This document shows, one piece after another, positions 8,521-56,989 of a stretch of 64,000 bases of DNA (position 1 is its first letter; every line of letters starts with the position of its first letter). The position numbers and the translations under genes were made by a program. The notes beneath the pieces were generated by a model, which saw nothing but the letters and a program-made list of their open reading frames with translations, was not told the DNA's origin and did not search any database. The stretch spans positions 1-64,000 of the forward strand of contig JAFXOI010000001.1 in NCBI GenBank assembly GCA_017528825.1, read 5' to 3'. This stretch comes from Elusimicrobiaceae bacterium (lineage in GTDB: Bacteria; Elusimicrobiota; Elusimicrobia; Elusimicrobiales; Elusimicrobiaceae).

Positions 8521-9021
8521 TTAACAAGGTTTTTCAGTATTTATATCAAAGCAACTAAAACCTTCCTGCTTTAGTACTTTGCATATAGCTAATCCTGCCG
8601 TAGATTTAGCGGCACATTCATGATAGGTCCATTTAGAAGTAACTAGGTTGCCATGAACGGTTACGTAAAGAGTATTGTCATTTTTGCGTACCCAGATATG
8701 ACTGGCATCAGCATCTGGTTCACACACCACAACGGAAGGACTATATCCTTTATTTTTCAAAGAAGCCATCGGCAATTCCACACTTAGTCCGCTTGCATCC
8801 TCATCAAAGTCATGACAACCCTCTGTTGGCACTCCATTTTCTAATACATATAATGCTAAAGCTTGTTTAGCATCCCGGATAAACAATAGTATTTCTGCCG
8901 CTCGTGCCTTGGCTACTGCTTTTTCATATTGCGGCAAAGCAATGGCTGATAAAATACCGATAATTAACACTACTACCAACAACTCAATAAGCGTAAACGC
9001 TCTGTTATTTTTTAACAACAT
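8521..9021 (-). CDS. Type IV pilin-like protein (prepilin signal FTLIELL)
   Basis: The 166-residue protein begins with a short basic leader, then the class III prepilin cleavage site and hydrophobic helix (AFTLIELLVVVLIIGILSA). The sequence continues with PQYEKAVAKARAAE, as in pilins and type II pseudopilins. The globular part is small. Cysteines near its end (HECAAKSTAGLAICKVL and the final Cys) probably form disulfides. It could be a pilus subunit or a minor pseudopilin exported through the inner membrane. An AGGAGG site precedes the start. The promoter has a ten-base T run in its spacer. Unlike the other pilin genes here, it has no copy of the structured RNA beside it. Confidence 0.85.
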   Translation of the reverse strand: MLLKNNRAFTLIELLVVVLIIGILSAIALPQYEKAVAKARAAEILLFIRDAKQALALYVLENGVPTEGCHDFDEDASGLSVELPMASLKNKGYSPSVVVCEPDADASHIWVRKNDNTLYVTVHGNLVTSKWTYHECAAKSTAGLAICKVLKQEGFSCFDINTEKPC

Positions 9022-9047: not shown

Positions 9048-9073
9048 ATGCTACAAAAAAAAAACGGTGTCAA
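9048..9073 (-). promoter_or_regulatory. Pilin promoter with a ten-T spacer (candidate phase-variable promoter)
   Basis: Read on the minus strand, a -35 box TTGACA (9073-9068) is followed by CCG, ten T residues (9064-9055), G, and a -10-like TAGCAT (9053-9048). The spacer is 14 bp as sequenced, shorter than the optimum of about 17. Gain or loss of T residues by slippage would change the spacing and therefore the strength. The element lies 27 bp before the pilin start codon. A matching arrangement precedes the pilin at 30322-31287. Confidence 0.55.
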
Positions 9074-27110: not shown

Positions 27111-28418
27111 TTATTTCTTATCGGTAGCAGTATCTGAGGGAGCTTGGCCGTTTGTCAGCGAATTTGGCAAAACTTGTTTATCCCCTTTTTCGTCCTGCTC
27201 CAAAGCCTCTTCCAAGGTGTCTATGTTCACAGCCGTAGTGGTACTGGGTACGGTCTGCTTTGTGGCGGAAATTGGTAAGGAAAAATCTTTTGCGCTTGGA
27301 GATACTTTCATATCCGGACGGATTTTAATCAATCCTTCCGATATAATTGTCTCCCCGCCTTTTAATCCTTCTGTTACGATATACAAATTATCCTGCAACT
27401 GTACCTTTACCGGTTGCGATTTGACCGTATTATCAGCTTGTACAATATACACCAAATCCCCCGCCGGAGTGCTTAAAACGGCAGAAGAAGGAACCAGTAC
27501 GGCTTCCTTATATACGGTCCCAATCAAGCGCACTCTTATAAACTGTCCCGGCATCAACATCCGCTGATTGGTCGGATTTGGAAATTCGGCCCGTATTGCC
27601 AAGGAAGAAGTCTTAACATCTTCCGTGCTGTCGAAGAAAATGATCGTTCCTTTTTCCGGATAGACCCGTCCGTCTGAAGTGATAGCCTCCACATAGACCG
27701 GATTTTCTCCGGTAGTGTCTAAAACGATGGTACCTTCTGTGTATCCTTGTGCCATTTTGTAAAATTGAGAGCTAGGCATAGAGAAGTTAACCCACAAGGG
27801 CTGGATTTGCACCATCGTGGTAAGTAGCCCATTTCCCGCCGGAGAAACCAAACTACCCACAGATTGTGCTTCCTTACCTGTAATCCCCGATATAGGGGCT
27901 AATACTTTAGTATATTGCAAATTAATTTTCGCATCACTTACGCCGGCCTGCGCCACTTTTACCGAAGCCTGAGCCGTTTCATAGGCAGATAAAGAATCGT
28001 CGTAATCTTTTTGACTTACGGCATTATCGGCACGCAATTTTTTCATACGTTCATAATCACGCCGTGTCCGACTCACATCCGTTTGTGCTTGAGCCAAAGC
28101 ACCTTCTGCCCGTTGCAAAGCCACTTCATATTCAGCCGGATCAATTTGGAACAGTTGTGTACCTTGTTGCACATAAGCGCCTTCATCAAATAAGCGAGCC
28201 TTTAGAATTCCGCCCACCTGTGCGCGTACTTGTACCTGCAAAGACCCCACTACTTGGGCCGGATATTCCATATTCCAAGGTAAATCTGCTTTTAATACCT
28301 TTATGGTTGTGACAGGAAGAGCTGCGTCTTGTTGTGACGCATCCTTTTTATGACAAGCACAAAGCATCGATATTGCCAAACAGACACAAACAGCCGAAAC
28401 AATTTGTATTTTTTTCAT
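27111..28418 (-). CDS. RND efflux periplasmic adaptor lipoprotein (AcrA/MexA-like)
   Basis: The start is the ATG at 28418, which has GGAGAGG at the right distance; a 15-base longer frame lacks that. The 435-residue product has a lipoprotein signal (LCAC near residue 22), the lipoyl halves flanking a coiled-coil hairpin (LQRAEGALAQAQTDVSRTRR and on), and the beta-barrel block FPNPTNQRMLMPGQFIRVRL. A poorly conserved polar tail of about 60 residues ends in DTATDKK. It links the transporter to the outer-membrane channel and is first in the operon. Confidence 0.93.
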   Translation of the reverse strand: MKKIQIVSAVCVCLAISMLCACHKKDASQQDAALPVTTIKVLKADLPWNMEYPAQVVGSLQVQVRAQVGGILKARLFDEGAYVQQGTQLFQIDPAEYEVALQRAEGALAQAQTDVSRTRRDYERMKKLRADNAVSQKDYDDSLSAYETAQASVKVAQAGVSDAKINLQYTKVLAPISGITGKEAQSVGSLVSPAGNGLLTTMVQIQPLWVNFSMPSSQFYKMAQGYTEGTIVLDTTGENPVYVEAITSDGRVYPEKGTIIFFDSTEDVKTSSLAIRAEFPNPTNQRMLMPGQFIRVRLIGTVYKEAVLVPSSAVLSTPAGDLVYIVQADNTVKSQPVKVQLQDNLYIVTEGLKGGETIISEGLIKIRPDMKVSPSAKDFSLPISATKQTVPSTTTAVNIDTLEEALEQDEKGDKQVLPNSLTNGQAPSDTATDKK

Positions 28419-28499
28419 GATAAACCTCTCCAATCTTAAAAAAAAATGAAATCAAAATTTTACTAGCAAACGCCCTACTTTATATTAAATTAAAATCTG

Positions 28500-30321: not shown

Positions 30322-31287
30322 TCAACATTTAGGAGCATTACTTGGACAATTTGTCTGACCGGGCACGCCTTCCTCGCAACAACCACCAAGATATTCCACT
30401 GCCGCAGGCCAACCAGTGTTACAACCATTCAGTACTTTAGCTACACATTTAGATCCACTATATAACTTTGCTCCATAACAAGTTGAACCATAGCCATTAT
30501 CAATTGTGCTAGCTTCACATGATGCTCCATTTTTAAAGCTTGAATAGGAACAGGCTTGAACTCCATCTCCAGCACAAGCACTATTATCATACTCTTTAGA
30601 CGAGCACCCGCGAAAAGCGGCGCCCTTACACATTCCTTCCGGCCCAATTTTGCTGCCGCCGCCATTGGTATAACCGCATTGGTCAGGATAATTTTCATCT
30701 GCTATTACGCCCATTCCTAAATCGGTACAACGCTCGATTGTTGTGTTATAACATTTTGTTTTGCTACTGCTCCAACTTCCGGTTGCCGCTCCGCAGGTGG
30801 CTTTATCTACCGATTGGTCTAACAAATATCTCGTATATCCATCATCGGTATTTTTTAAGTATTGTCCTAGTAATAATTTCTCACAAAGTCTGTTGGCGCG
30901 CTCATCTCCGGTAGCCGCTTCACAATGTAACTGTCCGGCAAATTTTGGATTGTCATCTAAATAGCTGGCTAAACGCACATTGGCAAGTTTACTATTTGTC
31001 ACTCTGATTACATTGGGGTCAGAGGTGTTATTGGGGGTGATTAAATTAAATGTTAAATCACTATTTTCCATAGTCACGTCCAAATTACCCATGGTGTCGG
31101 TATAGCCGTCATTGGACATCTTAAATGCTTCCTCTGCGTCTTTTATCGCTTTGGCTCCCGGGAGCATTGTGCTCCAATGACTCTTGTCCACTGCTCCTTG
31201 ATACATTGGGATAGCAATGGCAGAAAGAATCCCAATAATCAGAACTACGATTAGTAATTCAATTAAAGTAAAGGCTTTCTTTGACAT
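30322..31287 (-). CDS. Type IV pilin-like protein with a cysteine-rich repeat C-terminus
   Basis: The prepilin signal is AFTLIELLIVVLIIGILSAI at residues 5-24, followed by PMYQGAVDKS. This is a 321-residue protein, nearly twice the length of the other pilins here. Residues about 200-321 carry roughly twenty cysteines in imperfect units of 18-24 residues with two cysteines each (for example CSYSSFKNGASCEAS and CYGAKLYSGSKCVAK), a likely disulfide-stabilised adhesin-like region. It could be a pilus-tip or surface-binding subunit; this is inference. An AGGAG site precedes the start. Its promoter has a 12-T spacer, and RNA copy C lies 78 bases after its stop. Confidence 0.85.
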   Translation of the reverse strand: MSKKAFTLIELLIVVLIIGILSAIAIPMYQGAVDKSHWSTMLPGAKAIKDAEEAFKMSNDGYTDTMGNLDVTMENSDLTFNLITPNNTSDPNVIRVTNSKLANVRLASYLDDNPKFAGQLHCEAATGDERANRLCEKLLLGQYLKNTDDGYTRYLLDQSVDKATCGAATGSWSSSKTKCYNTTIERCTDLGMGVIADENYPDQCGYTNGGGSKIGPEGMCKGAAFRGCSSKEYDNSACAGDGVQACSYSSFKNGASCEASTIDNGYGSTCYGAKLYSGSKCVAKVLNGCNTGWPAAVEYLGGCCEEGVPGQTNCPSNAPKC

Positions 31288-31373
31288 TTTTATTCTCCTG
31301 TTTAATCATCTTAAAACGCCCGTAATGCAACGTTTCGCAAGCAAGTGTCTTGAAAACAGCGGCGTTCTAAGAA

Positions 31374-31401
31374 ATCGTAGCAAAAAAAAAAAACAAGTCA
31401 A
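31374..31401 (-). promoter_or_regulatory. Pilin promoter with a twelve-T spacer (candidate phase-variable promoter)
   Basis: On the minus strand TTGACT (31401-31396), TG, twelve T residues (31393-31382), GC, then TACGAT (31379-31374). The spacer is 16 bp. The arrangement repeats that before the pilin at 8521-9021. A leader of about 80 bases separates it from the start codon. Confidence 0.6.
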
Positions 31402-40795: not shown

Positions 40796-40992
40796 CTGTT
40801 TTTGGAACCGTATGAAGAATACGGCATACTGAAAAGTACAGAGCAACGCCAAAAACAGCCAATTTAGGCACAAAATAAACGGACTAATTACCCGGGTGTT
40901 TTGTGCCGAATGTTTGCCGTTCATTAGAACGGCAAACTACGGCTGTTTTCTACTGGCTTGGTTGCTCTGGCCCGGGAAAACGGCCGTTTTTT
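40796..40992 (+). ncRNA. Structured double-pseudoknot RNA, copy A (upstream of a pilin gene)
   Basis: H1 is CUGUUUUUGG (40796-40805) with CCAAAAACAG (40849-40858), ten pairs. H2 is CCGUAU-GAAGA-AUACGG and H3 is UACU-GAAA-AGUA. Pseudoknot PK1 is CAGAGCAAC (40839-40847) with GUUGCUCUG (40961-40969), nine perfect pairs. H4 is GGCACAAAA (40867-40875) with UUUUGUGCC (40899-40907). Its loop holds CCCGGG, which can pair with CCCGGG at 40971-40976 as PK2. H5 is GUUUGCCGUUC-AUUA-GAACGGCAAAC. H6 is GGCUGUUUUC (40941-40950) with GAAAACGGCC (40976-40985), followed by GUUUUUU. H6 plus the U-run is terminator-like and lies 38 bases before the pilin ATG. Confidence 0.8.
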
Positions 40993-41029: not shown

Positions 41030-41599
41030 ATGAAAAAAGGATTCACCTTAATTGAACTGTTAATAGTTGTGTTAATTATAGGCGTACTGAGCGCCATTGC
41101 CCTGCCGCAATATGAAAAAGCCGTGGAAAAGAGCCGGGCCGCAGAACCCATGACTTTACTTAGTGCTCTAGGTAAAGCCCAAGAAGTATATTATATGGCT
41201 AACGGAACCTATGCAGATACTTTTGATTTATTAGATGTGCAAATACCCAATAATTATCAATCTTCAGACAAGTGTTCTTTATTTAATGATAGTACGGATT
41301 GCGTGGCAAACCAAGACTGGGCTATTGGCTTTTTAGAAGATAAAACTTGGGGATGGACTTTCTTTTTTGCAGTACGTTTGCAGGGAAAGTATGCTGTAAA
41401 AGAAAATAGTGAAAATCAAGCTGTACTACTATATTTATCAAAACGCCCATCTAACACTAGTCAAGCTTTGCCACAACATGAACATACCGTTATGTGTTCA
41501 TCAAATGGAAATTATTGTAAAACTGTACTCGGCGGAAAAGCATTTAGTGGGTGGAGAAATTCAAACAGTGGGGGCTCGCATACAAATCACACCTTATAG
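41030..41599 (+). CDS. Type IV pilin-like protein (downstream of RNA copy A)
   Basis: The 189-residue protein starts MKKGFTLIELLIVVLIIG, a very short basic leader before the prepilin cleavage site. ALPQYEKAVEKSRAAEPMTL then continues the long N-terminal helix. The globular part carries cysteine pairs (KCSLFNDSTDC and VMCSSNGNYCKTVLGG) and a Gly/Ser/His-rich end. GGAG precedes the start. It is preceded only by the structured RNA, so its expression may depend on readthrough of the terminator-like H6. A role as pilus or pseudopilus subunit is inferred. Confidence 0.88.
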   Translation: MKKGFTLIELLIVVLIIGVLSAIALPQYEKAVEKSRAAEPMTLLSALGKAQEVYYMANGTYADTFDLLDVQIPNNYQSSDKCSLFNDSTDCVANQDWAIGFLEDKTWGWTFFFAVRLQGKYAVKENSENQAVLLYLSKRPSNTSQALPQHEHTVMCSSNGNYCKTVLGGKAFSGWRNSNSGGSHTNHTL

Positions 41600-56201: not shown

Positions 56202-56411
56202 CTGTTTTTGGAACCGTTGAAGAGACGGTGCGCTTTTGGGATACCAAAGGCAATAGCGAAGTCCAAAAACAGCTCGTTATCAGGCACTACATACCGGAGC
56301 CGATCCCTTTGGTGTGTGGTGCCGAGCGTTTGCCGCATCTTTAGGTGCGGCAGACCACGGCTGTTATATTTGGGGTCAACTTCGCTAGGCTCTGATATAG
56401 CAGCCGTTTTT
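56202..56411 (+). ncRNA. Structured double-pseudoknot RNA, copy B (upstream of a pilin gene)
   Basis: H1 is CUGUUUUUGG with CCAAAAACAG (ten pairs). H2 is CCGUU-GAAGA-GACGG and H3 is CUUUUGG-GAUA-CCAAAGG. PK1 is AGCGAAGU (56255-56262) with ACUUCGCU (56379-56386), eight perfect pairs. H4 is GGCACUACAUACC (56283-56295) with GGUGUGUGGUGCC (56311-56323), 13 pairs including wobbles; its loop GGAGCC can pair with GGCUCU at 56388-56393 as PK2. H5 is GUUUGCCGCAUC-UUUA-GGUGCGGCAGAC. H6 is GGCUGUUAUAU (56359-56369) with AUAUAGCAGCC (56395-56405), followed by GUUUUU. The pilin ATG lies 33 bases after the U-run. Confidence 0.82.
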
Positions 56412-56443
56412 GTTGGGTTTCAAAACAGAAAAAGGAGAATGTT

Positions 56444-56989
56444 ATGAAACACAACAAACGGGGTTTTACCCTCATTGAATTATTAGTAGTCGTGCTGATT
56501 ATCGGCATTTTGTCAGCCATTGCTATCCCGCAATATCAGAAAGCCGTAGAAAAAGCAAAAGCAACCCAAGCTTTAACTCTTCTAAAATCGATTCAAACTG
56601 CTGAAAATGCTTATTTTCTAGCTAATGGGACTTATGCAATAAATGATTGGTCTCTACTTGACGTACAAATAGATTGGCCCGATTCAACAAAAAAATGGTG
56701 GGAAGGCGGGAAAATACCAAAAACCAATGGAGAGTGGGTTTTAGAAATTTTCCAATGGGGAACAACTTCGATTGTTATGGGAAGAATTGAAGGGAATCAT
56801 CAAGGCGGAGCTTTTATTTTACCTTTAATTCCATTTCCCGGTACAGATAAAATTTCTGCAAATCAAATTTATTGTGCAGAAAAGCGATGTTGCGGAACGG
56901 TATATAGGGGGACAGGTTATTGCGAAAAAATATTTGGAGGAACTAAAATTTATAGTGATGGTGGAGAAGATTGGTATAGTCTACCTTAA
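56444..56989 (+). CDS. Type IV pilin-like protein (downstream of RNA copy B)
   Basis: The 181-residue protein starts with the basic leader MKHNKRG and the prepilin site FTLIELLVVVLIIGILSAI; AIPQYQKAVEKAKATQALTL then continues the helix. The mature part has Trp-rich stretches (VQIDWPDSTKKWWEGG) and a cysteine-bearing end (IYCAEKRCCGTVYRGTGYC). AAAAGGAG precedes the ATG. Like the pilin at 41030, it sits right after a copy of the structured RNA. The leader and helix are close to those of the other pilins while the ectodomain differs, so the family varies mainly in its exposed part. Confidence 0.88.
   Translation: MKHNKRGFTLIELLVVVLIIGILSAIAIPQYQKAVEKAKATQALTLLKSIQTAENAYFLANGTYAINDWSLLDVQIDWPDSTKKWWEGGKIPKTNGEWVLEIFQWGTTSIVMGRIEGNHQGGAFILPLIPFPGTDKISANQIYCAEKRCCGTVYRGTGYCEKIFGGTKIYSDGGEDWYSLP

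Follow-up and report, generated by a model that had tools for sequence, protein, structure and literature searches.

Homopolymer-spacer promoters before type IV pilin-like genes suggest slipped-strand phase variation in a genus of Elusimicrobiaceae

Phase variation by homopolymer slippage is best known in pathogens and mycoplasmas. In Neisseria, a homopolymer between the -35 and -10 boxes of porA and opc changes their spacing, a coding homopolymer in pilC shifts the reading frame, and variation of the major pilin comes from recombination with silent copies; the fim genes of Bordetella have an activator-dependent promoter with the C stretch upstream of its -10 box. Two reports describe Bordetella pertussis fim2, fim3 and fimX as having homopolymer-length-dependent promoters (PMC1891110, PMC10172299), the length of the C stretch affecting transcription of fim2 and fim3 (PMC1891110). 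For Mycoplasma hyorhinis, published work places an A tract in the promoter region of each vlp gene, with switching by insertions and deletions there (PMC10502178), and counts seven vlp genes in one strain (PMC4198240). In the open-licence literature, judged by titles and the openings of abstracts, no such system is described for Elusimicrobi pilins, type IV pili or phase variation.

The stretch of DNA analysed here, the window, comprises 64 kb of a draft genome (1.53 Mb, 41 contigs) of an Elusimicrobiaceae bacterium that contains 114 matches to the N_methyl family PF07963, and two of its pilin-like genes are preceded by promoters with a homopolymer spacer (Table 1). The arrangement resembles the Vlp system in that a family of surface-protein genes carries a homopolymer in the promoter region of each gene concerned, vlp expression being random on/off (PMC10502178). 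It differs in scale, with about 37 dispersed tract promoters against the seven vlp genes of one strain (PMC4198240), and also in that the products are pilins rather than lipoproteins, the phylum is another, and the tract is of T, A or G depending on the species. With Bordetella fim it shares a homopolymer in the promoters of pilus-subunit genes (PMC1891110, PMC10172299); the length effect on transcription is that of fim, which comprises few genes and another pilus type. The spacer homopolymer recalls porA and opc, and a coding tract found in one relative (G030) recalls pilC, but these Neisseria genes are single while a large paralog array is seen here. By analogy, the present promoters would work like those of vlp, fim and porA/opc; the likeness is one of sequence, from which we infer the switching.

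Table 1. Promoters, pilin-like genes and leader RNAs in the 64-kb window (window positions)
Feature	Position	Strand	Description
Tract-spacer promoter, 28 bp	31374..31401	-	TTGACT-TG-T12-GC-TACGAT; spacer 16 bp
-35 box of this promoter	31401-31396	-	TTGACT
T12 tract of this promoter	31393-31382	-	flanked by TG and GC
-10 box of this promoter	31379-31374	-	TACGAT
Presumed transcript start and 5' untranslated region	31288..31373	-	before pilin 30322-31287; 86 bp from promoter to ATG
321-aa cysteine-rich type IV pilin-like protein (N_methyl)	30322..31287	-	PF07963, 27.1 bits (cut-off 21.2)
Second tract-spacer promoter	9048..9073	-	TTGACA 9073-9068, CCG, T10 9064-9055, G, TAGCAT 9053-9048; spacer 14 bp
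166-aa type IV pilin-like protein (N_methyl)	8521..9021	-	PF07963, 33.8 bits (cut-off 21.2)
Attenuator-like leader RNA	40903-40992	+	before pilin 41030-41599
Attenuator-like leader RNA	56319-56412	+	before pilin 56444-56989

The two promoters read as an earlier note on this DNA had claimed: a T12 run with 16-bp spacing before the cysteine-rich pilin, and the same design in a shorter form before the other. In both, recognisable -35 and -10 boxes flank the tract, as in the spacer switches of vlp and porA, so that its length sets their spacing, and the TGC before TACGAT may furnish the longer promoter with an extended -10 element. Both proteins have the N-terminal methylation motif and hydrophobic helix of type IV pilin-like proteins. 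The 321-residue pilin contains 18 cysteines and belongs to a large paralog family: its own genome yields 42 matches at E <= 1e-20. Outside that genome the top score goes to a G033 protein with 44% identity across some 170 residues, and shorter matches that span some 80 residues at the N-terminus reach 58%. Nine long pilins were aligned, longer genes cut by the ends of their stretches being left out; their mean identity to the window protein is 0.79 in residues 1-20 and drops to 0.16-0.37 in residues 181-320. The two window pilins can be aligned with each other in their N-terminal regions alone, where 30 of 54 residues are identical, and the word 'unrelated' applied to them earlier is thus apt for the protein bodies and wrong for the N-terminal regions.

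Runs of at least nine T number three on the two strands of the window, and only two reach T10, both of them in the two pilin promoters. The third, a T9 run (28438-28446, minus strand), lies just before the start region of an HlyD-like gene (27111-28433) in an AcrB-type efflux operon and is possibly another slippery site. Searched against Rfam, the promoter and rpsI region gave seven matches (E up to 5), none reaching the gathering score, and the whole window gave two tRNAs and no regulatory RNA at the pilin promoter.

Across the whole draft genome, 91 T10 windows collapse to 32 runs of at least ten T, and 31 of these lie on the same strand as a pilin match, 32-248 bp upstream of it. The remaining run stops 104 bp short of a contig end, roughly the distance at which a pilin start would be expected, and no other run of this length occurs away from pilins, against about 66 runs expected in the genome under a first-order model of the window bases (about 5 under a zero-order model). 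Random placement would put at least 31 of the 32 at pilins with P = 4e-64, and two congeners agree: a pilin match follows within 300 bp for 19 of 20 such runs in G028, where the exception adjoins a contig end, and for 14 of 15 in G023, where the exception has no pilin near. This comparison used 41 of 141 pilin matches. The judgement that two pilin genes would hardly share this design by chance is borne out, and a genome scan found such spacers enriched upstream of pilins, the opposite of the outcome that the earlier note had named as fatal to its idea. The pattern TTGACN3T9N0-8TANNAT has 20 sites in the genome and none in the reversed control, which stays at zero across all 61 genomes scanned; the bare pattern TTGACN12-20TANNAT is uninformative, with 199 sites versus 153 for its reversed control. 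Counting tracts of at least T8, 37 tract promoters lie upstream of the 114 pilin matches. When the matches are sorted, 36 have a tract promoter, 36 a leader RNA and 42 neither, and since 78 therefore lack a tract promoter, the proposed switch would reach only part of the pilin set. Palindromic repeat-like elements (GGATGACC..., GCTGAGCAAAGACGACTCAGC) sit between tract promoter and pilin start at C35:17758, C11:16322 and C31:100985.

The tract pattern is present in 10 of the 61 genomes, all of one genus and with up to 83 sites in a single genome, and in none of 24 genomes from the other family of the order. A stricter pattern run on one genome for each of 84,980 species, a set from which records of the window's own genome were possibly left out, returned 91 stretches; 79 of the 80 listed are titled as Elusimicrobiaceae, Elusimicrobiales or Elusimicrobia and one as 'uncultured bacterium'. 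Separate scans of viral contigs found no further copies. At pattern-picked loci in seven metagenome-assembled genomes (MAGs) of relatives, 86 of 99 runs of at least ten T have a pilin motif within 300 bp downstream. Of the other 13, eight lie near the end of the available sequence (seven at 3-173 bp, one at 302 bp); in two the motif follows after 318-320 bp; L279 and one run of L297 have no pilin near; and the last, the T11 tract promoter of L295 from a roe-deer MAG, precedes a small lipoprotein-like gene instead of a pilin. In L172 (G011), near position 1294, a tract promoter runs directly into the mid-coding sequence of a pilin, as if a deletion had taken out leader and N-terminus.

Tract and spacer lengths vary. 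The 37 promoters of the source genome carry T8-T16 and spacers of 13-20 bp: 13 bp in five, 14 in one, 15 in four, 16 in eighteen, 17 in six, 18 in two and 20 in one. T12 is the commonest tract (19/37), and among 36 promoters with one flank pair in the roe-deer MAG it accounts for 31, with T11 in four and T13 in one; this dominance is narrower than free slippage would give and speaks against the slippage reading. Among 20 promoters of G028 that share the same boxes, ten carry T12, three T11, two T10, four T9 and one T7. These are the 20 of 25 tract-promoter stretches that fitted a flank pattern requiring constant boxes, which leaves the 95 bases after the tract as the only free comparison; the five left out are a contig end (T13), two tracts running straight into ACAAT (T10, T8), one with an internal G (T10) and one with other flanks (T12). 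Among the 190 promoter pairs, nine have at most three mismatches in those 95 bases, and seven of the nine differ in tract length, a count that gene conversion could blur and whose pairs are not independent. Length thus differs while the neighbouring sequence stays constant among paralogs within one genome, as distinct from one locus across strains, and in short-read assemblies a tract length may be off by one base.

Canonical TTGACA-n-TATAAT sites of the genus provide a yardstick for these spacers. Once three tract promoters had been excluded, 147 other listed sites had spacers of 17 bp in 63 cases, 18 bp in 50 and 16 bp in 12, as compared with 16 bp in 18 of the 31 tract promoters with at least ten T (Fisher P = 3e-9). 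The usual tract spacer is one to two bp under the genus norm of 17-18, and the T12 state may for that reason be a weak one. The earlier phrase 'closer to optimum' for the 16-bp spacing should be amended, as 16 bp is not the optimum of this genus.

We favour, with a probability of about 0.77, slipped-strand phase variation, in which homopolymer-spacer promoters would turn pilin-like genes up and down randomly and independently. Each tract promoter would be of the sigma-70 type, with a spacer made up largely of a single homopolymer; slippage of the polymerase would add or remove tract bases and so change the distance from -35 to -10, and each pilin gene would be turned up or down randomly, reversibly and independently of the others. 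The 16-bp form (T12) is probably weak or intermediate, the 17-18 bp forms (T13-T14) strong and those of 13-15 bp (T11 and shorter) off. A clonal population would then carry many combinations of pilin subunits and display combinatorial pili. The earlier hint of combinatorial on/off expression draws strong support from the placement of the tracts, their length differences and the coding C tracts described below; the switching itself would be what these features of the sequence point to. As in contingency loci generally, the tracts are longer than chance would give and lie in a promoter or a reading frame.

The base of the tract changes among relatives. Tracts of at least 11 A, 57-300 bp before pilins, occur in G011 (nine runs) and G032 (one run), in stretches partly chosen for holding T10 windows; most of these promoters read TTGACA-AATC-A11-CGATAATAA, with one -35 box cut by a contig end and one reading TTGAAA, and the spacer measures 16 bp to GATAAT or 18 to TAATAA. 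At one locus of G061, TTGACG-AGGTGC-G10-TATAAT stands before a pilin. In G030 every run of at least nine G or C, seven in all, is a C9-C12 tract that follows an ATG and precedes the pilin motif by 38-94 nt (L338-L344), with the upstream ATG in frame in three and out of frame in four, which suggests frameshift phase variation of these pilins; the G/C runs fetched from other genomes are mostly not at pilins. Homopolymers at pilin 5' ends thus recur with four bases and two mechanisms, promoter spacing and reading frame.

This variety bears on a fixed regulon, in which the T tract would be a stable architectural element, whether rigid or bent DNA or the site of a regulator, and would co-regulate the pilins without its length acting as a switch. 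Such a regulon would fit the dominance of T12 with a 16-bp spacer and the flanks common to many paralogs, and it is possible for the species with T tracts; we nevertheless consider it unlikely, since it leaves the A, G and coding C tracts unexplained and near-identical promoters differ in length. A T-specific regulator was set aside because the tracts of relatives are of A, G or coding C. The varying base, together with the length differences at near-identical promoters, favours slipped-strand phase variation over a fixed T-tract regulon.

Promoter and 5' regions are near-identical among many paralogs of the source genome, and the distance of 95 bp from tract to pilin match at the 321-residue pilin recurs at ten other loci. 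Both observations would suit a hitchhiking cassette, whereby duplication or gene conversion copies promoter, leader and N-terminal codons as one unit and the tract is carried along with no role of its own. This seems very improbable, given that at least two flank types in the source genome retain long tracts, other genomes have flanks of their own, one-base runs of other kinds recur at the pilins of relatives, and long T runs are otherwise absent from a genome in which the first-order model expects dozens. Several contigs of the source genome (C5, C9, C13, C17, C25, C35, C39) end in or near pilin 5' regions, as expected if near-identical cassettes of promoter and N-terminus break the assembly. 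That the runs reflect base composition or errors of a draft in 41 contigs, some with runs at their ends, is refuted as a cause of their placement by the concentration at pilins, the empty reversed controls and the same outcome in two more genomes, although exact lengths may still carry error.

A second set of pilins lies downstream of the attenuator-like leader RNA, which by a simple pattern precedes 36 of the 114. In its layout a covarying hairpin comes first, and a U run follows a second, long hairpin that is terminator-like; 13 of 26 predicted pairs show sequence changes on both sides, and the overlap of GCCG and ACGGC would make two exclusive folds possible. Rfam gave no match at the gathering score in the window and none credible for one instance of the leader. 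A model built from 22 leaders finds 47 copies in the source genome and 90 in G026; of the 47, 37 were checked, and in 35 of these a pilin match follows within 500 bp. At E <= 0.001 the leader turns up in 36 of the 41 genomes examined from the genus. Two long pilins of the source genome, C1:99899 and C1:31210, are 65% identical as proteins and differ in control, with the leader RNA in one and a T-tract promoter in the other. In relatives (L349, L353-L356, L358-L363, L365) the leader also stands before genes that look outer-membrane-like, lipoprotein-like or glycan-related, labels assigned by eye from the sequences and not by family search, and the RNA may on that account govern the cell surface at large.

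There is an even chance, in our estimate, that the genus plays a stochastic keyboard: tens of dispersed pilins under hypermutable tracts that would rest a base or two short of the best promoter spacing and come on by a slip, with T, A or G tracts in promoters and C in coding sequence, and a second pilin set under the attenuator-like leader RNA. If slipped-strand phase variation does operate here, slippage would control dozens of type IV pilin-like genes in a lineage of uncultured gut commensals. Sister species would be running the same device on different bases, which would make the genus a natural experiment in promoter spacing and in contingency loci, and which pilins are on would become predictable from sequence.
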